DNA of 64,000 nt from NCBI GenBank assembly GCA_021831785.1, contig JAKBMB010000006.1, positions 62,001 to 126,000 of the forward strand, written 5' to 3'. The translations under genes were made by a program, and so were the position numbers. Shown in pieces: positions 9,317-51,552 of the stretch. Under the pieces are notes generated by a model. That model worked only from the letters and a program-made list of their open reading frames with translations. It was not told the DNA's origin and made no database searches. Position 1 is the stretch's first letter. Every line of letters begins with the position of its first letter. Source of the stretch: Deltaproteobacteria bacterium. GTDB lineage: Bacteria > Desulfobacterota > Binatia > Binatales > Binataceae.

Positions 9317-10693
9317 TCACCCTCTCATCCACGGCGGCAGCTTGAAGCTAGCAGTCTGGTAAGGCGGCGGAGCGATCAGCTCGGGCTCCTTCTTGTAATC
9401 CTGGATCTGCAGATATTGATGCGGCATGCCCAGCGAAGGATCCTTCGTTGCGTCGGGATACGGAATGGCGGCCTGCTCCGGGACGAAGAAGCGCGTCGTG
9501 CCCATCACGCCGCGATAGATCATCGTGCGCAGCCGGTCCGCTACCTTGCGATTCTGATCGAATTCGCCGGGTCCGCTGGTGCCCCCGGCGACCGCCGCCG
9601 CGAGCGCGTAATAATGAGCGCTATCGTACACCTGCGCCGCGACCAATGGGCTGGCCGAAGGTCCGAATCTCTTCTTGTAGCGCCGATTGAAATCCTCGCC
9701 GATCTGGTCGCGCAGCGAGGCGATCACGGTTGAGTAGAGCACGCCATTGGTGGCCTTGCCGCCGATTTCGCGAAAGGCCGCCAGCGACGGCCCGTACTGC
9801 ATGTAGACGAGGCTGCCGGTCGGGTTGGGGGTGAACTGCAGCATGAACTGTGCTAGGTCTTGCGGCACCCAGTGGGTGACCGCGACTACCGCAGGCGGGT
9901 CGTTGCGAATCTTCGCCAGCGTCGGCCCCCACTCCGAGATCGGCACCACGACGGTCTCGGATAAGCTGATCTTCCAGCCATAGTTCTTGGCCTTCGCTTT
10001 GATAGCATTGGCGATGACCACGCTGTAGTTCTGGGAGCCCGTGACCACCGCGATTTTGTTATTCGGCCGCTTCCAGTGTCCTGATTCCCCCAGGCCATTG
10101 AGGAAAGCGAGCAGACCTTCACCGTACCAGTACTCGGCCGGATCGCCCATGAAGATGCCGAAGTACTTTTTCGGATTCTTGCCGACCGTGCTGTGATGGA
10201 CGATGTCGGTGTTGTGATGGATGTAGATGATGCCGGCGTCGGCGATGCTGTCATACTCGGCCGTGACGGCGCCGGTGTTATAACCGTTTACGATAGCGTG
10301 CACGCCGTAGCGGTCGATGAGCCGCTGCATCGCCGGAATAATGTTGTCAGCGCCCTGTTCCTTAGTGTCCTCGAAGTGCGGCTCAAGCGGCCGACCGAGG
10401 ATGCCGCCGAGCATGTTTATCTCGTCGCAGGACATCTCAAGCGCGCGTTTGAACTCGATGCCGTCGGCGGCCGCCCACCCGGTCAGCGGCACCCCCGCGC
10501 CGATCGGGATCGGCTTGTTGTCAGTTGTCTTGCCGGCTTCCTTGGCTTGGCTATTGATCGCCGCGAGCATGCCGCTTCCGAGCGCGACGCCTGCGCTTGC
10601 GGCCGCGCCGACCGCGCGCTTGAGGAAGTTGCGCCGGCCCGGTTCCGTCGCTGCAGCGTTTTCGCCGCGTGCCATGGGGATTTTTGTGTGCAT
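9317..10693 (-). CDS. Periplasmic substrate-binding protein of a Liv/amide ABC importer
   Basis: A Peripla_BP_6-type ligand-binding protein of about 458 residues, akin to amide/urea receptors (AmiC, UrtA, FmdD) and LivK. The N-terminus holds a Tat motif, RRNFLKRA at 20-27, before a hydrophobic stretch, so it is exported folded. IPIGAGVPLTGWAAADG and MSCDEINMLGGILGRP match the start of the binding fold. I start at the ATG at 10693 because AGGAG precedes it and the signal peptide follows; an upstream extension of 85 residues in the same frame is basic and overlaps the dimethylformamidase gene. Position next to the amidase genes suggests it binds an amide or its product. Confidence 0.9.
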   Translation of the reverse strand: MHTKIPMARGENAAATEPGRRNFLKRAVGAAASAGVALGSGMLAAINSQAKEAGKTTDNKPIPIGAGVPLTGWAAADGIEFKRALEMSCDEINMLGGILGRPLEPHFEDTKEQGADNIIPAMQRLIDRYGVHAIVNGYNTGAVTAEYDSIADAGIIYIHHNTDIVHHSTVGKNPKKYFGIFMGDPAEYWYGEGLLAFLNGLGESGHWKRPNNKIAVVTGSQNYSVVIANAIKAKAKNYGWKISLSETVVVPISEWGPTLAKIRNDPPAVVAVTHWVPQDLAQFMLQFTPNPTGSLVYMQYGPSLAAFREIGGKATNGVLYSTVIASLRDQIGEDFNRRYKKRFGPSASPLVAAQVYDSAHYYALAAAVAGGTSGPGEFDQNRKVADRLRTMIYRGVMGTTRFFVPEQAAIPYPDATKDPSLGMPHQYLQIQDYKKEPELIAPPPYQTASFKLPPWMRG

Positions 10694-10761
10694 CTTTGTT
10701 TCTCCTGGTCTTAACGTTTCGCGATGCAATTGCGCTCCGGCTCCCGGCACCGGCGCTGGGC

Positions 10762-13011
10762 TCAGAACGGTCTTTCGTCGAGGAACCGCCTGAGCACGTT
10801 GCTCGTAATCCGGGACACGTCGTTGTCGTAATTGTGGTGCGAAAGGCTTCCCGCCCAAGCGATAGAGCCGGTGGCGAACACCGCTCCGCCGCTTGGAGTT
10901 TCGTAAAACACGATATCGGCGCGGACCAAGTCGTTTTCCCCACCGCACAGGCCGGGAGCGTTGATCAAGATCTCCTCTAACACGACCATATAGATCGGCG
11001 TGTGGTTCTCGGAAGAAGCCAGCACGAGCGCGTTTGGCGGTGTGCCCAGCAGGCGGTCGGCTCGATCTAATTCAAGACCGGCCGCGCCTCCGCCGATCAG
11101 GCCGAAATTGCCGATCAGTTCATCCTTGTCGACTCCCTCGAAGATGAAATTCACGCGTGAGTCGAAACTTTCTTTGGTGCGGCGATAATACGAGGAGAGG
11201 TCGAAGCCTTGCGCCGAGAACCCGACTCCGGCCATCTTTTGCGGGGCGAGACCTTGACGGCGCCAGAGCCCGCCGTGCTCCCCGGTAAAGCTGTGGTAAT
11301 ATTCGCCGGGCTCGGCGGCCCAGGCGCGAATGCCGCCCTCGGCGCGGCGCACCTCAATTACACCCGGCTTGGTCGGATGGTACGCGATGCGCCAGTACCA
11401 CGCGTTGCCGCCGGTATAGATAAGCCGCCCACCGGCCTTTTTAAACGCGTCGAGCGCATCCCACATTTGCTTCGACCAGTACTCGTGATGAGTCGAGGTC
11501 ATGAAAACGCGGTAAGGCGCGATTGCCTCGTAGCCTTCGGCGTGCAAGTCTTCGTCGGTAATGCAGTCGTAGTCGAACTTCATCGCCTCGAGCCAGTCGA
11601 TGATGTGTGTGTCCGCGTTCATCTGCCAGAGCGAGGAGCCCTTGCCTCCCAGCCATGATTGATATTTCGGCCGCATTGTCAGAATCGGCCTAAGCCGCGA
11701 GGAGTAGCATACGCCGCTGCCGTCCGAGTGGGTGTCGTAGCAAGAGTAGCCGTATTCGCGGTGTTCGTGGAGAAATACGTCTACGGGCTGAAGCGCGACG
11801 ACGCTGCCGGTCAGGAGCTCCGCGAGTGCGGCATCGGTGGCCATGTGCTCGTTTGCATAAGCCATGTAGCTAGCCGTAGGCACCACGAAGACCAGTTTGG
11901 ATGTGGCTTTCCCGCGCTCCGGTCTGATTACGAACGGTATAAAGTCCTCGTCGTCTTCAGTCGCGACATGCGCGGCGTAGAGGCCGCTTTGGAGACCTGC
12001 CGGTGCGGTGAAAGCGAAGTCGGCCTCCCATCCGGCGTCGTAGAGGTCGTCGTCGTGAAAGTGGATGGCCCCATACTGCTCGGGTTTGTGCCGCCAGCAC
12101 ATTTCTTCGCCGGTCCAGTTCCAGCCGGTCATCGCGCGGGCGGGGAGATTTAGCGTCTCGCCGTGGTGACGATTGGGTGACACGTCGATGATTTGCTCTG
12201 TAGTGATTTGTTTGGAGAAGTCCCATAGCCCCACGATCGCGCTGCTCAGCGAATGAGGTGGATCGCCGCCGCGCAGTTGCTCCATTTCGAGTCGAGACAG
12301 CACCCGGTCGGCTAGCGATGGCCGATCGATCTTCCCGTTGTAGTGCCCGTCCGTCCGCGCGCGGCCGTTGGACGTCTGTGCGTAATGGGCGGCGACGACA
12401 AACGGCGCGCCGTTGGCATGACGCGGCCTCACCTTCGCGGTGCGTCGCAACTCGGCCGACGTGTCTACCTTGGCATACGCCACTAGCGGGTCCTGATAGA
12501 GGCAGACCTCGCCGTTTGCCGCGTTGTAGCTGGCAGCCACGAAATACCACTCTCTGGCCAGCATTACCTTGCCGGTCCGGACGTCTTCACTCGCGCCTGT
12601 GCCGTCGCCGAGCGTGAGCACCAACCCACCTTGGTCATCGAGGCCGAGAATAAAGCCCGCGCCTGACTTGGCGTTCCAACGGCTTAATATGCTCTGACGC
12701 CCTTTCTCCGGAGTGGTCGGCCACACCATCGCTTGGACGGAAAAGCTGCCTAGCTGCTCAAAGGCGCGGTGGTTGGGGATGACGATGCACGAACCAGGGC
12801 ATATCGCTTGCTTGCGTCCCTTGTAGGTGCCCTCGAGGTCGCTCTTAACCGCCCGCTCTTTATATCCTGGGCCCTCGGGATTGGTGTCGCCGTGAATAAT
12901 CCGCACAAGGCGCGCCTTGTAGTTCGAAGCCTTTTCGCAGGACACCATGAACCGAATCGTCTCGCTTGGGCACACACTAATCTTGTCGCTATAACCCATG
13001 ATTTGTTTCAT
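10762..13011 (-). CDS. dmfA2: N,N-dimethylformamidase large (beta) subunit-like iron amidohydrolase
   Basis: 749 residues, close to the roughly 760 of Paracoccus DMFase large subunits, which hydrolyse dimethylformamide to dimethylamine and formate with a mononuclear iron. Residues about 85-250 look like a concanavalin/laminin-G-type lectin fold (FSVQAMVWPT ... WYFVAASYNAANG). The catalytic part begins near 300 and shows PTASYMAYANEH (Tyr382/385), GYSCYDTHSDG (Tyr425) and STHHEYW (His508, Glu510), matching the Tyr-Tyr-Glu iron ligands and nearby His reported for the enzyme. It follows the small subunit gene by about 50 bases. Family assignment is firm; the true substrate could be another N-substituted amide. 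Confidence 0.88.
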   Translation of the reverse strand: MKQIMGYSDKISVCPSETIRFMVSCEKASNYKARLVRIIHGDTNPEGPGYKERAVKSDLEGTYKGRKQAICPGSCIVIPNHRAFEQLGSFSVQAMVWPTTPEKGRQSILSRWNAKSGAGFILGLDDQGGLVLTLGDGTGASEDVRTGKVMLAREWYFVAASYNAANGEVCLYQDPLVAYAKVDTSAELRRTAKVRPRHANGAPFVVAAHYAQTSNGRARTDGHYNGKIDRPSLADRVLSRLEMEQLRGGDPPHSLSSAIVGLWDFSKQITTEQIIDVSPNRHHGETLNLPARAMTGWNWTGEEMCWRHKPEQYGAIHFHDDDLYDAGWEADFAFTAPAGLQSGLYAAHVATEDDEDFIPFVIRPERGKATSKLVFVVPTASYMAYANEHMATDAALAELLTGSVVALQPVDVFLHEHREYGYSCYDTHSDGSGVCYSSRLRPILTMRPKYQSWLGGKGSSLWQMNADTHIIDWLEAMKFDYDCITDEDLHAEGYEAIAPYRVFMTSTHHEYWSKQMWDALDAFKKAGGRLIYTGGNAWYWRIAYHPTKPGVIEVRRAEGGIRAWAAEPGEYYHSFTGEHGGLWRRQGLAPQKMAGVGFSAQGFDLSSYYRRTKESFDSRVNFIFEGVDKDELIGNFGLIGGGAAGLELDRADRLLGTPPNALVLASSENHTPIYMVVLEEILINAPGLCGGENDLVRADIVFYETPSGGAVFATGSIAWAGSLSHHNYDNDVSRITSNVLRRFLDERPF

Positions 13012-33677: not shown

Positions 33678-35147
33678 ATGATGAATCAGCCAGTCGTACT
33701 TTCCGTACAAAAGGATATATCCGACTTGCACCGCGTGTTTGACAGGCAACGCGAAGCTTTCCAGAGCGGCCAGTATCCGAGCGTGCAAGCGCGGCGCCGG
33801 TTGCTTAAGCGGCTTGAAGCGATGGTGATCGGGCACGAGCGCGAAATTGCGCAAGTGATCGGCGCCGACTTCGGCCATCGCTCAGCCGACGAAACCAAAT
33901 TGCTGGAGGTGGTGCCGACTTTAAACGCTATCAGGTACGCCTATAAGCGCGCCGCGCGCTGGATGAAACCGCAGCGCCGGCACGTATCGATCACCTTTCA
34001 ACCTGGCAGGTCATGGGTCATTTATCAGCCGCTTGGTGTCGTGGGAATCGTCGTGCCATGGAACTACCCGCTGTATCTGGCGATAGCTCCTCTCACGGAT
34101 GCGCTTGCCGCCGGCAACCGCGCAATTATCAAGCCCTCAGAGTCTACCCCGCTTTTCGCCGAGCTTTTGCATCAAATAGTCCAGAGCAGGTTTGACGAAA
34201 GCGAAGTTGCGGTGGTGACAGGCGGACCTGACGTAGCCCAGGCGCTTTGTTCTCTACCCCTTGACCATCTTCTATTTACCGGTTCGGCCCGAGTGGCGCG
34301 CCAAGTAATGAAAGCGGCAGCAGAGAATCTCACTCCGGTTACGCTTGAGCTGGGAGGCAAGTCGCCTGCAATTGTGTGTCCGGATTATTCAATCGATAAA
34401 GCCGCGCGCAGCATCGCCCTGGGCAAATTCTTAAACGCGGGCCAGACCTGCGTTGCGCCGGATTACGTCCTGGCGCCGGCGGAAAAAGTCACGCAGGTTG
34501 CCCAGAGCGTTCTTGAATATGCACGCAGGTTTTACCCGCGAATTGATCACAACGGGGATTACACCTCGATAGTCAGCGGCCGGCATTATAAGCGTTTGCT
34601 TCAGGCGATTGAGGAGGCGGGGAGCGCCGGCGCCACGATATTACGTTATGACGACGTAAGGGCAGAGGAGCGAAAGATTGGTCCGACGATTGTGCTCGAA
34701 CCGCCCCGCGACTGTTTGCTGATGCGGGAGGAAATTTTCGGCCCGGTCCTGCCTATTGTCACCTACCGCACAATCGATGAGGCACTGGGCGAGGTTACGC
34801 GGCGTGAGCGGCCTTTGGCTCTTTATTGTTTCACCAATGACAAGCGGCTTCGCCAGCGCATCCTGATGAAGACGTTCTCGGGCGGTGTGACGGTCAATGG
34901 CACGCTGCTCCACGTGGCGCAAGAAGACCTGCCTTTTGGAGGCGTTGGGGCAAGCGGAATGGGCGCTTACCATGGCTTTGAGGGCTTCAAACGCTTCAGC
35001 CACGCCCGCGCGGTGTTTGCGGTGGGATTCATGAATGGCTCCGAGCTGCTTGCCCCGCCCTACGGGAAGCTAGCCCGACTGGTGGGCCGTTTGCTTATCG
35101 GCCGACGGAGACAAGCGCAGAGGCGGGTCCGTCAATTGAGGGGCTAA
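33678..35147 (+). CDS. Aldehyde dehydrogenase, coniferyl-aldehyde dehydrogenase type
   Basis: 489 residues of the class 3/CALDH branch of NAD(P)-dependent aldehyde dehydrogenases. Catalytic residues are Asn129 (VVPWNYP), Glu224 (TLELGGKSP) and Cys258 (NAGQTCVAPDY). The C-terminal end with a hydrophobic and basic stretch (KLARLVGRLLIGRRRQAQRR) may bind the membrane, as in fatty aldehyde dehydrogenases. It oxidises an aldehyde to an acid. The PQQ alcohol dehydrogenase 225 bases downstream would supply that aldehyde. Confidence 0.92.
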   Translation: MMNQPVVLSVQKDISDLHRVFDRQREAFQSGQYPSVQARRRLLKRLEAMVIGHEREIAQVIGADFGHRSADETKLLEVVPTLNAIRYAYKRAARWMKPQRRHVSITFQPGRSWVIYQPLGVVGIVVPWNYPLYLAIAPLTDALAAGNRAIIKPSESTPLFAELLHQIVQSRFDESEVAVVTGGPDVAQALCSLPLDHLLFTGSARVARQVMKAAAENLTPVTLELGGKSPAIVCPDYSIDKAARSIALGKFLNAGQTCVAPDYVLAPAEKVTQVAQSVLEYARRFYPRIDHNGDYTSIVSGRHYKRLLQAIEEAGSAGATILRYDDVRAEERKIGPTIVLEPPRDCLLMREEIFGPVLPIVTYRTIDEALGEVTRRERPLALYCFTNDKRLRQRILMKTFSGGVTVNGTLLHVAQEDLPFGGVGASGMGAYHGFEGFKRFSHARAVFAVGFMNGSELLAPPYGKLARLVGRLLIGRRRQAQRRVRQLRG

Positions 35148-35371: not shown

Positions 35372-37561
35372 ATGAGGATCCGTACGCTTCTCGCTGCGGG
35401 TCTGGGGGCTATAGTTTTGGCGGCGCTCGCGCGTTGCGGTTTTGCGGCTGAGGCTGCGGCGGATGACGGGCGGCTGCTCAGTGCCGAGACCGAACCCGGG
35501 CAATGGATGATGGTGGGGCGCGACTTTTCCGAGCAGCGGTTCAGTCCACTTACGCAGATCAACAAGGAAACCGTAAAGCGCCTGGGGCTTGCCTGGTTCT
35601 TTGCTACCGGCAGTCGGCGCGGCCTCGAGGCTACCCCGGTGGTCGTCGACGGCGTCCTCTATACCACCGGGACCTGGAGCAAGGTCTACGCCCTGGATGC
35701 CGCGAACGGGAAATTGCTGTGGAGCTACGACCCGCAGGTGCCGCGGCGATGGGGGGTTTACGCGTGCTGCGATGTGGTGAACCGCGGCGTCGCGGTGTGG
35801 CAAGGCAAGGTCTATCTAGGCACGCTCGACGGACGCTTGATCGCGCTCGAGGCTGCAACGGGCGAGCCGCTATGGTCGGTCCTTAGCGTGCCGCCGGATC
35901 GACCGTATACCATCACTGCCGCTCCGCGGGTCATCCACGGCAAGGTTATCATTGGCAACGGCGGTGCCGACTACGCCGGTGTACGCGGCTATATCTCCGC
36001 GTATGACGCCAATGACGGACACCTGGTATGGCGCTTTTACACGGTGCCGGCCTCTAAGGCGGAGGCCCAGCCGCCGGTTATGGCTAAGGCTGCTCAAACC
36101 TGGTCGGGCCGGAGCTGGCAGGCGGCAGGCGGTGGAGGCACGGTCTGGGGCGACCTTGCCTATGATCCCAAGCTAAATCTCATCTACTTTGGCACGGGAA
36201 ACCCTTCGCCATGGAATAACCGCATTCGCAACCCTGACGGAAAAGACAATTTGTTCACTGCCTCAATCGTCGCGTTGGACGCCGATAGGGGACAGTATCG
36301 GTGGCATTTTCAGACCACGCCGGATGATGCCTGGGACTACGACGCCGATCAAAATCTTGTGCTTGCCGACCTCGTGATAAACGGGAAGAAGCGCCAGGTG
36401 ATGATGCAGGCGAACAAAAACGGGTTTTTCTACGTTTTGAACAGGGTTACCGGCGACTTCGTCTCCGGCGGCGCTTTTGTCGACCAGAATTGGGCTAAAG
36501 GCCTTGAGCCCGGGACCGGCAGGCCAATCTTGGCCGGCCCTCCGTACGCGAGAAACGGAAAATTCGTAAACCCGTCGCCGCTTGGCGGCCACAACTGGCA
36601 GGCCATGGCGTTCAACCCACAAACGCGTTTGGTCTATATCCCAGCCAACCAGGCCCCTTTTCTTTACCAGGCAGAAAGCGGCTTTCAGCTTGTCCTAGGG
36701 CGCTGGGACACGGGACTTAACCTTGCGGCAGAGGCAGCTCCACCAGGAATCGATCCGCTCCTGCTGCGCGCGATTATCCAGCGGGTTGTGGCCGGACAGC
36801 TAATCGCCTGGGATCCGGTCGAAGAGACCGCACGTTGGCGGGTGCGCCAACCGCTGCCCTGGAACGGGGGCGTCCTTACTACGGCAGCGGGCCTGGTCTT
36901 TGAGGGGACTGCCGATGGCCGCTTTGTCGTTTACGACGCGGAAGACGGCAAGCTGCTTTGGCAACAACATCTCCCAAACGGGATTATCGCCGCCCCGATG
37001 ACCTATGCGATTGGCGATAGGCAGTACGTGGCCGTGATGATGGGATGGGGCGGCTCTTTCGGACTGCTCGCAGGGGAAGCGGCCAGAGTGAACGGAAGAG
37101 ATTACGCCGGCTACCTCCTGGTATACGCGCTTGACGCAGAGGCCGCCTTGCCCGCCCCTGAGCCGAGATTGCGCGGCATACCAGAGCCGCCAAAGATCGA
37201 TGCCGATGATCAGGCGCTGACTAATGGTGATCGATTTTATAACCAACTCTGCGCAGTATGCCACGGCGCAAATGCCATTAGTTCGAGCGCTTTGCCGGAT
37301 TTGCGTTACATGGATATGGATACTCATCGACAGTTCGACCGAATTGTTCTTGCAGGCGCGCTTAGCGAGCGCGGAATGGCGAGTTTCGCGGCTCTGCTCA
37401 CTCCCGAGCAGGTTAAGGATATACACGCGTACCTGGTAAGGCGGGCGCAGGCCACGCGCGACGCAAAGCTCGAATCCGAACGCTGGGCAGGAATCAAGAT
37501 GTTTTTTTACGGGCTAATCGCTCCGCTCCTCAATTGGCTCCAGGGGCTCAAGTTCAGCTAA
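35372..37561 (+). CDS. Quinohaemoprotein (PQQ plus haem c) alcohol dehydrogenase
   Basis: 729 residues: signal peptide (about 1-27), eight-bladed PQQ propeller, C-terminal cytochrome c with CAVCH at 627-631. Adjacent cysteines 132-133 give the vicinal disulphide over PQQ. The catalytic base is Asp322 in DDAWDYDADQN; a second Asp at 324 (+2) is the residue that coordinates lanthanides in XoxF and PedH and is Ala or Ser in calcium enzymes. The metal-ligand Glu of GGAEYG is Asp200 here (GGADYAGVRG, with one extra residue). It oxidises alcohols in the periplasm and passes electrons through its haem. Lanthanide use is inference. Confidence 0.92.
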   Translation: MRIRTLLAAGLGAIVLAALARCGFAAEAAADDGRLLSAETEPGQWMMVGRDFSEQRFSPLTQINKETVKRLGLAWFFATGSRRGLEATPVVVDGVLYTTGTWSKVYALDAANGKLLWSYDPQVPRRWGVYACCDVVNRGVAVWQGKVYLGTLDGRLIALEAATGEPLWSVLSVPPDRPYTITAAPRVIHGKVIIGNGGADYAGVRGYISAYDANDGHLVWRFYTVPASKAEAQPPVMAKAAQTWSGRSWQAAGGGGTVWGDLAYDPKLNLIYFGTGNPSPWNNRIRNPDGKDNLFTASIVALDADRGQYRWHFQTTPDDAWDYDADQNLVLADLVINGKKRQVMMQANKNGFFYVLNRVTGDFVSGGAFVDQNWAKGLEPGTGRPILAGPPYARNGKFVNPSPLGGHNWQAMAFNPQTRLVYIPANQAPFLYQAESGFQLVLGRWDTGLNLAAEAAPPGIDPLLLRAIIQRVVAGQLIAWDPVEETARWRVRQPLPWNGGVLTTAAGLVFEGTADGRFVVYDAEDGKLLWQQHLPNGIIAAPMTYAIGDRQYVAVMMGWGGSFGLLAGEAARVNGRDYAGYLLVYALDAEAALPAPEPRLRGIPEPPKIDADDQALTNGDRFYNQLCAVCHGANAISSSALPDLRYMDMDTHRQFDRIVLAGALSERGMASFAALLTPEQVKDIHAYLVRRAQATRDAKLESERWAGIKMFFYGLIAPLLNWLQGLKFS

Positions 37562-49176: not shown

Positions 49177-51552
49177 TCAGTAAAGCAGGTACTCTGTGCG
49201 CAGGCTTCGGAAGCGGTTTAGCGGCCGTTCCCACTGGCGTGCGATTGTTTTCGGATCGTCGCCGCGTCTAATAGCGCTTAGAACCCGGCGCGACCCAATC
49301 AGCCTCAGCGTCTGATCAACCCGAAATGCCGTCGGATAAAGCCGGAGCAATGCGCTGATGATCTCGACCCCGAGCGCCGGAGAATCCAGTTTGTCCCGAT
49401 CGATCAGCTCAATCCGGACGCCGTGGCACTTCCGGTCCTGGTACCGATCGGCCGCGGGCGTAAAATCCGCCGGCTTGAAAGCAACGCCGGGAATCTCCCT
49501 TCGGTTCAGATAAGCCGCGAGCTTTTGGCTGTCGATCCACGGCGCACCGACCACTTCGAAAGGCGCCGCGGTTCCGCGGCCAACGCTTACATTGGCGCTC
49601 TCGGCTAGCGCGACGCCGGGGTACAACACCGCCTCGGCGAGCGAGCGGAGGTTGGGCGACGGGTCGATCCAGCGCAGGCCGGTGTCGTCGTACCAGGCGG
49701 CCCGCCGATAGCCGCGCATCGCAATCACCTGGAGTCTCGCGCCGATCCGGTTTTCGCCGTTGAACATCCGGGCCAACTCGCCGATCGTCATGCCGTATCT
49801 GACGGGAAGCGGAAAATAGCCGGTGAACGATTCGAGCTCCCGGTCCAGCACCGGACCTTGAACCACGCCGGCGCCGATCGGATCGGGCCGATCCAGGATG
49901 TAAAAGGCGATCCCCTGTCTAGCGGCAGCCTCCATCGCGTAAGCCATCGTCGTGAGGTAAGTATAGAAGCGTACTCCCACGTCCTGAACGTCGAACACCA
50001 GCCCGTCGATCCCATCGAGCATCGCCGGAGTGGGCCTGATGACATCGCCGTAAAGACTGAACAGCGGCAGGCCCGACGCCGAATCCATCGCGGAACTCAC
50101 CTTTTCATCGAGCTTGCCGTATAGACCGTGCTCGGGAGTGAAGATCGCAACCAGCTTGACGCCAGGCACGGAACGAAAGAGGTCGATATCGGTTCTGCCG
50201 GCCGCGTCACGGCCGGTCTGGTTCGTGATCAGTCCGACTCGCAGGCCTCGAAGGGGCGCGAAATTTTCCGCTGCGAGCACGTCGATTCCCGCCGCCACCC
50301 TCAAATTATCGTTCTTGCGATCGGCGCTGGCTATCGCCGGGTAATAGCGCGCTAGACCGGGGAGACCCGCGACCACCTGTGTCGGCGTAAGCGGCCCTAT
50401 CAATGCGCAAACCTGGTTGATGATCTGCTTGCGCAAGGGTTGCGCGTCGCCGCGTCCGTCCGGGTATGTCCGGTTGGTCAAGACGATTACGTAGACCTTC
50501 GTGACAGGATCGATCCAGATCATGGCGCCGGTGAAGCCGGTATGACCGAACGAGCCTGCGGGAAATAGTTCGGCGCGATTGGAAGCGAATGGCGCCCCGA
50601 CGTCCCAGCCCAGACCGCGCAATCTCTCTCCGGCAGGCGTTGACGCGGGCTGGGTCATCTCCGCGATCGATGAACCGCTGAGGATGCGCACGGCTTTGAG
50701 CTGGCCTCCGTTGAGCAGCATCCGGCTAAAAACCGCGAGATCATCGGCGGTCGAAAACAATCCGGCGTGACCGGCAACGCCACCCATCCGGGATGCGCTT
50801 GGATCGTTGACCGTCGCGCGCCATAGTCCGTGCTCCAGCCGCTGGGTCGGAGCGATTCGCCCCGTCTGGCCGGGCGGCGGCTGGAAGTTCGTGTCGCTCA
50901 TGCCGAGGGGCCGGAAGATGTTGCGATTGCAGTAGACATCCAGGGGCAAACCCGAGACGCGCCGAACCAGTTCACCAAGCACCTCGAAATTCTCATCGCT
51001 GTAAAGGTAGCGCGCGCCGGGCGGAAACAGCGGCCGGTCCGCAACCAATAGGCTCATCGCGGCACCGTAGCCCGACCACTGTCGCCGCAGTTTTAGATCG
51101 GGCTTGAGCCCGGAATAGTGGGTCAACAGGTCGCGGATCGTGATTTGAGCTTTGCTGCTCGCCGCGAACTGCGGCCAATACCGGGCCGCCGGCGCGTCGA
51201 GGTCGAGCCTCCCGCGCTCAACCAGTTGCATTATGGCGATGGTGGTTGCAACGGCCTTGGTGAGCGAGGCAAGGTCGAAAATGGTATCGGCCGTCATGGG
51301 AACCGGGCTTGGTCCGAACGCTCGCAGCCCGAAGGCGCGCCGGTAGACGATATCGTCGCCCTGGCCGATAAGCACGACCGCGCCGGGGATGTGGCCGTTT
51401 GCGATCTCGCCGCGCACGATGCCAGCGACGGGAGCGAGTGACTGAGGCGAAAGTGATAACCGGCCGGGAGCCGTGGCATGACCGCGCGCCGGGTTTAGAC
51501 ACAAGCTAAAAGCAACCGCCAAAGCGGCGACCTTAATGCGCCGGGCTCGCAT
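49177..51552 (-). CDS. Serine beta-lactamase-fold hydrolase fused to NamZ-type (DUF1343) muramidase
   Basis: 791 residues in two enzymes. After a signal peptide, residues about 35-405 are a class C beta-lactamase/penicillin-binding fold with SLTK (Ser96, Lys99), HYSG at 145-148 and HTG near 330. Residues about 420-790 are a DUF1343 domain (VGLITNQTGRD, TPEHGLYG, FDVQDVGVRFYTY), the family of NamZ exo-beta-N-acetylmuramidase. Together they could trim peptides and sugars from cell-wall fragments, pointing to muropeptide recycling. It leads the three-gene glycan cluster. Confidence 0.9.
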   Translation of the reverse strand: MRARRIKVAALAVAFSLCLNPARGHATAPGRLSLSPQSLAPVAGIVRGEIANGHIPGAVVLIGQGDDIVYRRAFGLRAFGPSPVPMTADTIFDLASLTKAVATTIAIMQLVERGRLDLDAPAARYWPQFAASSKAQITIRDLLTHYSGLKPDLKLRRQWSGYGAAMSLLVADRPLFPPGARYLYSDENFEVLGELVRRVSGLPLDVYCNRNIFRPLGMSDTNFQPPPGQTGRIAPTQRLEHGLWRATVNDPSASRMGGVAGHAGLFSTADDLAVFSRMLLNGGQLKAVRILSGSSIAEMTQPASTPAGERLRGLGWDVGAPFASNRAELFPAGSFGHTGFTGAMIWIDPVTKVYVIVLTNRTYPDGRGDAQPLRKQIINQVCALIGPLTPTQVVAGLPGLARYYPAIASADRKNDNLRVAAGIDVLAAENFAPLRGLRVGLITNQTGRDAAGRTDIDLFRSVPGVKLVAIFTPEHGLYGKLDEKVSSAMDSASGLPLFSLYGDVIRPTPAMLDGIDGLVFDVQDVGVRFYTYLTTMAYAMEAAARQGIAFYILDRPDPIGAGVVQGPVLDRELESFTGYFPLPVRYGMTIGELARMFNGENRIGARLQVIAMRGYRRAAWYDDTGLRWIDPSPNLRSLAEAVLYPGVALAESANVSVGRGTAAPFEVVGAPWIDSQKLAAYLNRREIPGVAFKPADFTPAADRYQDRKCHGVRIELIDRDKLDSPALGVEIISALLRLYPTAFRVDQTLRLIGSRRVLSAIRRGDDPKTIARQWERPLNRFRSLRTEYLLY

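Follow-up and report, generated by a model that had tools for sequence, protein, structure and literature searches.

A haem-fused PQQ alcohol dehydrogenase from the Binatales with a putative lanthanide-type metal site

Introduction

In PQQ-dependent alcohol dehydrogenases the cofactor, together with a Lewis-acid metal, takes hydride from an alcohol, and the lanthanide enzymes have an extra aspartate that completes their site for a trivalent ion. The classification of these enzymes was reportedly set up by Keltjens in 2014. The solved structures closest to the enzyme described here are the quinohaemoproteins ADH-IIB (1kv9) and ADH-IIG (1yiq) of Pseudomonas putida HK5 and QH-ADH of Comamonas testosteroni (1kb0), which have a glutamate as metal ligand and a threonine two residues after the catalytic aspartate (hereafter the +2 position) and whose metal is calcium. 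The type III membrane alcohol dehydrogenase of Gluconobacter also contains a haem-fused PQQ subunit (8gy2 chain A); this has threonine at +2 as well, a longer C-terminus and membrane association, and works with extra subunits. PedH of P. putida KT2440 (6zcv/6zcw; PQQ-ADH type 2b) is lanthanide-dependent and has no haem domain, and XoxF (4mae, 6oc5, 6dam) likewise has no fused haem, is served by a separate cytochrome, XoxG, and forms a clade of its own. Both carry aspartate at +2, which yields a D-x-D motif.

XoxF and PQQ-ADH type 2b cannot coordinate lanthanides without the extra aspartate; type 2b is the only type besides the methanol dehydrogenases shown biochemically to use lanthanides, and the biochemically proven lanthanide enzymes (XoxF, ExaF and PedH) have so far been haem-free (PMC11996626). 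D-x-D outside XoxF is not new, because the same study reports the motif, by sequence, in most of 17 ocean PQQ families (PMC11996626). In the open-access literature searched we found neither a haem-fused lanthanide enzyme nor a haem-fused type II D-x-D enzyme or its repeated origin; an earlier mention at the level of sequence is possible. Here we describe such a haem-fused D-x-D enzyme, encoded in a 64,000-nucleotide stretch of Binatales DNA (the window), and compare it with its relatives.

Results

The window encodes a type II quinohaemoprotein

The open reading frame is intact, begins with an ATG directly downstream of a good ribosome-binding site (GAGGAAAGGA) and specifies 729 residues (Table 1). 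Its product scores 626 bits against TIGR03075 (NCBIfam, PQQ methanol/ethanol dehydrogenases; cut-off 480) and matches the Pfam families PQQ and Cytochrome_CBB3, the latter as a C-terminal cytochrome c. The AlphaFold model (pLDDT 90, pTM 0.91) and the sequence agree on the best solved structures, namely 1kv9 and 1yiq followed by 8gy2 and 1kb0, and the PedH and XoxF structures rank below these four. Together with the TIGR03075 score, the fold match to 1kv9 (E 2e-75) assigns the protein to the eight-bladed PQQ propellers of the methanol/ethanol family. Compared with 1kv9, 1yiq and 1kb0 it shows the same fold and domain order over its whole length, with 41-47% identity and a TM-score on target of 0.89-0.94, and it shares with them a vicinal cysteine pair, the asparagine and catalytic aspartate ligands, and a haem c with an axial methionine. 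This C-terminal haem c is of class I (CxxCH plus axial Met), and the sequence features are those of a type II quinohaemoprotein. The signal-like N-terminus points to periplasmic export.

In contrast to 1kv9, 1yiq and 1kb0, the protein ends in an additional helix (residues 703-728) that, judging from the model, may attach the enzyme to the membrane; in this putative contact, and in being a haem-fused PQQ subunit with a longer C-terminus, it resembles 8gy2 chain A. Most of the family lacks such a tail. Because a similar one occurs in the threonine-type enzymes L115 and L148-L154, the sequences indicate that the helix is independent of the change at the metal.

Table 1. Coordinates in the window of the gene, its notable residues and the upstream gene.
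Feature	Position	Strand	Evidence
Aldehyde dehydrogenase, upstream	33678..35147	+	Pfam Aldedh
Haem-fused PQQ-dependent (type II quinohaemoprotein) alcohol dehydrogenase	35372..37561	+	TIGR03075, Pfam, structure matches, AlphaFold
Predicted N-terminal signal peptide, approximately residues 1-26	35372..35449	+	By inspection: hydrophobic N-terminus; low pLDDT over 1-26
Vicinal Cys132-Cys133 (disulfide ring over PQQ)	35765..35770	+	Invariant in 46 rows; aligned with CC pair of 1kv9/1yiq/1kb0
Asp200 at the metal-ligand Glu position	35969..35971	+	Aligned with Glu of 1kv9 and PedH; Glu in five closest relatives
Ala202, one-residue insertion beside metal carboxylate	35975..35977	+	Gap opposite in 1kv9/1yiq/8gy2/1kb0/6zcv
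Phe273, just before the Asn ligand; as in PedH	36188..36190	+	Thr-type relatives mostly have Ile or Val
Asn277, metal ligand	36200..36202	+	Invariant in 46 rows
Asp322, catalytic Asp and metal ligand	36335..36337	+	Invariant in 46 rows
Asp324, lanthanide-type Asp (D-x-D)	36341..36343	+	Aligned with PedH WDFD; invariant in six-member clade
CAVCH haem c attachment site, residues 627-631	37250..37264	+	C627, C630, H631 invariant in 46-row alignment; Pfam Cytochrome_CBB3
Met669, axial haem ligand	37376..37378	+	Invariant in 46 rows
C-terminal amphipathic/hydrophobic helix, residues 703-728	37478..37555	+	Helix in AlphaFold model; conserved in window clade

The metal site contains an extra aspartate that is conserved in a six-member clade

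A sequence-only reading of this DNA had pointed to an aspartate two residues after the catalytic one in the motif WDYDAD, and to an aspartate with a one-residue insertion where the metal-ligand glutamate is expected. Both observations hold. The segment W321-D322-Y323-D324-A325-D326 is encoded at 36332-36349, Asp322 aligns with the catalytic aspartate of 1kv9, 1yiq, 8gy2 and 1kb0, all of which have threonine at +2 (WDFT/WDYT), and in the alignment to PDB chains the residue opposite Asp324 is the lanthanide aspartate of PedH (WDFD in 6zcv). The alignment to 1kv9 and PedH also confirms Asp200 and the inserted residue, the metal-carboxylate segment reading GGADYAGVRGY in the window protein versus GGAEY-GVRGF in 1kv9. 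PedH further resembles the window enzyme around the asparagine ligand (FGTGNP.PWN), whereas it retains the glutamate, lacks the insertion and is ~37% identical in the propeller; XoxF shares the D-x-D motif and the propeller fold.

Relatives were collected by searching the order and class of the genome as well as the orders to which two related genomes belong, and by a scan of public genomes. Five of them (L045, L046, L008, L146 and L147, with 77%, 70%, 62%, 59% and 57% identity to the window protein, respectively) form one clade with it at a support of 100/100; three of the six members belong to the window's order and three to the order of genome G528. Asp324 and the insertion are present in 6/6 members, whereas Asp200 is found in the window protein alone and the other five have glutamate. 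With its shorter side chain, Asp200 could bind the metal more weakly, a point against lanthanide use. Turning a threonine codon into one for aspartate (ACN to GAY) takes two or more base changes, and an asparagine codon lies one base from both threonine (ACY) and aspartate (GAY). As judged from the sequences, Asp324 is beyond chance: it is conserved together with the insertion in six orthologues, the corresponding residue is threonine in 149/207 haem-fused enzymes, and at least two base changes separate the two. In the genome of L008 (isolate REEB218, 2.7 Mb) no strong PQQ alcohol dehydrogenase was found besides the window enzyme's relative, which makes this genome a clean case for studying metal use.

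D-x-D recurs across the haem-fused family

Of the 207 distinct haem-fused enzymes collected, 149 have T at +2, 37 have D, 9 N, 7 S, 3 K and 1 each A and V. The underlying searches started from the window protein, and one of them took the peptide WDYDADQN as its pattern, so the counts do not represent population frequencies. The motif and insertion columns were removed before the trees were built. On the tree of haem-fused relatives D requires 12 changes, of which well-supported branches force 10 in a large quick tree and 9 in a careful tree of 53 rows; the bootstrap range (5%-95%) on the latter is 11-12. A single clade or origin of the haem-fused D-x-D enzymes was rejected on the 53-row tree (AU p 6e-51). 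The earlier proposal that the two changes together define a distinct lanthanide branch thus falls, since D-x-D appears at no fewer than nine separate places and Asp200, within its clade, in the window enzyme alone. The clade of the window enzyme is one of these D-x-D groups, and it is nested in a family in which the members of solved structure use calcium. The window enzyme groups with the haem-fused enzymes, separately from XoxF and the other haem-free D-x-D rows, and by the tree and by its best structural matches, which are of type II, it lies outside the XoxF and type 2b (PedH/ExaF) clades. We conclude that its lineage probably moved from a threonine-type (calcium) to an aspartate-type site, as one of several such moves.

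The reverse history, in which D-x-D is ancestral in the haem-fused family, threonine types arose by repeated loss and the lanthanide site of the window enzyme is an old inheritance, draws on the aspartate found in all of the haem-free XoxF-like and other paralogues, and on the view, repeated in PMC10409515, that the superfamily at large began with lanthanide enzymes. Against it, a two-state model of the 207 sequences favours gains, the no-gain model being 13 log units worse, with a midpoint root that is non-D; as the tree was rooted at its midpoint, the direction is provisional. Threonine-type Acidobacteria sequences without haem also adjoin the haem family, forming one group with the haem-fused rows at a support of 100. 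We regard ancestry of D-x-D as distinctly improbable; it concerns history and is compatible with lanthanide function.

Other changes around the metal

The one-residue insertion occurs in 18 rows, 10 of D type and 8 of N type, and in 0/161 of the others, and Phe273 is present in 30/37 D-type rows versus 11/161 rows of T, S, A, K or V type. After correction for relatedness both associations run in the expected direction and neither is significant (median p 0.125 each). The insertion was therefore rejected as a strict partner of D: its 18 cases are all D or N, and they amount to four independent pairs only. Asp200 was likewise rejected as a mark of lanthanide use, since 29 threonine-type rows (non-D, non-N) also have aspartate there, against a single case in the window clade. 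Of the lanthanide-type site as first read from the DNA, Asp324 therefore stands, through its conservation in the clade and the all-D-x-D genome described below, and Asp200 drops out.

Two further sets of sequences differ at +2. In L228, L231, L269, L270, L272, L273 and L274 the motif reads WD[YF]NS and every member has the one-residue insertion, so that asparagine with the insertion is possibly a third type of metal site. In the sphingomonad haem-fused enzymes L027, L029 and L035 lysine occupies +2 (WDYKAT/WDYKST) and the vicinal cysteine pair is missing at the aligned place; here a positive charge may replace the metal site. Such asparagine (9 rows) and lysine (3 rows) types illustrate that variation at +2 need not concern lanthanides, and the window residues might by the same token mark another specialisation, of redox potential or substrate, with the metal unchanged. 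We give this little credence, as Asp324 occupies the very place of the lanthanide aspartate of PedH and Phe273 also matches PedH.

Genome and neighbourhood

The genome encodes six PQQ alcohol dehydrogenases of the superfamily, five over the TIGR cut-off and one just under it. D-x-D is present in 6/6, and in 21/21 matches from the genome's order (E below 1e-100); none in either set is calcium-type. The XoxF of the genome lies on another contig beside an XoxJ-like gene (TIGR03871, over cut-off), and PQQ synthesis is encoded, with two PqqE-like proteins over cut-off. A search of the genome for lanmodulin gave none (best E 0.135), nor did a gene for lanthanide uptake come to light in the analysis. 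Next to the window gene we saw no xoxG, xoxJ or other lanthanide gene, and no partner subunit genes of the type III kind.

The aldehyde dehydrogenase gene upstream possibly supplies the next step of the pathway, acting on the aldehyde product. A conserved operon of the two genes was considered and rejected, as related loci show no synteny; the genes neighbouring the window enzyme's relatives differ from locus to locus. Elsewhere in the window, 49177-51552 (- strand) encodes a beta-lactamase-family serine hydrolase domain fused to the exo-N-acetylmuramidase NamZ, perhaps for cell-wall recycling, and 9317-13011 (- strand) encodes a protein that resembles the large subunit of N,N-dimethylformamidase and carries a lectin-like domain; a periplasmic binding protein is encoded next to it.

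Discussion

We propose, with a probability of about 0.65 and on the strength of sequence comparison, that the window enzyme is an alcohol dehydrogenase of the periplasm, wired through its own haem, with a light lanthanide as its metal. Lanthanide use is likely because Asp324 is conserved throughout the clade and because the other PQQ alcohol dehydrogenases of the genome are all of the same type. In the mechanism that we envisage, for which we infer the lanthanide occupancy, the electron route, the membrane contact and the substrate, a light lanthanide would be held in the PQQ site by Asp200 (glutamate in the relatives), Asn277, Asp322 and the additional Asp324. This trivalent metal would polarise the C5 carbonyl of PQQ, Asp322 would take the alcohol proton and hydride would pass to PQQ. 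Electrons would then move singly to the fused haem c and from there into the respiratory chain, which means that the first electron step would proceed without a separate XoxG-type cytochrome, and the C-terminal helix may hold the enzyme at the membrane.

The main competitor is a quinohaemoprotein that still uses calcium (or magnesium) and in which Asp324 is tolerated or has a tuning role. The solved homologues of the same family are calcium enzymes, the genome lacks lanmodulin and lanthanide genes do not flank the window gene. Moreover, the characterised membrane glucose dehydrogenase has D-x-D and binds Ca, Mg, Zn or Sr (PMC11996626), and because this promiscuous enzyme does so, D-x-D alone is not sufficient for lanthanide use. 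What speaks against a calcium site is that D does not vary across a clade spanning 57-77% identity to the window protein, that it arises repeatedly and accompanies further changes near the metal, and that the genome's PQQ alcohol dehydrogenases, XoxF included, have D-x-D only. On balance we consider a retained calcium site unlikely, though it keeps an appreciable share of the probability, and we favour the haem-wired lanthanide enzyme.

For the family as a whole we suggest tentatively, with the doubts slightly outweighing the case in favour, that lanthanide use arose at least nine times in haem-fused enzymes by replacement of threonine with aspartate, helped in some lineages by the insertion, and that these enzymes form a hidden, self-wired class. 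The many close pairs of D- and T-type enzymes provide a natural experiment on how a calcium site becomes a lanthanide site. If true, a haem-fused lanthanide enzyme would carry its own electron acceptor, which would be useful for bioelectrodes and for studying how the lanthanide-PQQ couple is matched to a haem. From their sequences, the haem-fused D-x-D enzymes appear to be a promising group of candidate rare-earth enzymes, and a lineage in which all PQQ alcohol dehydrogenases carry D-x-D suggests a reliance on lanthanides outside the well-studied methylotrophs.
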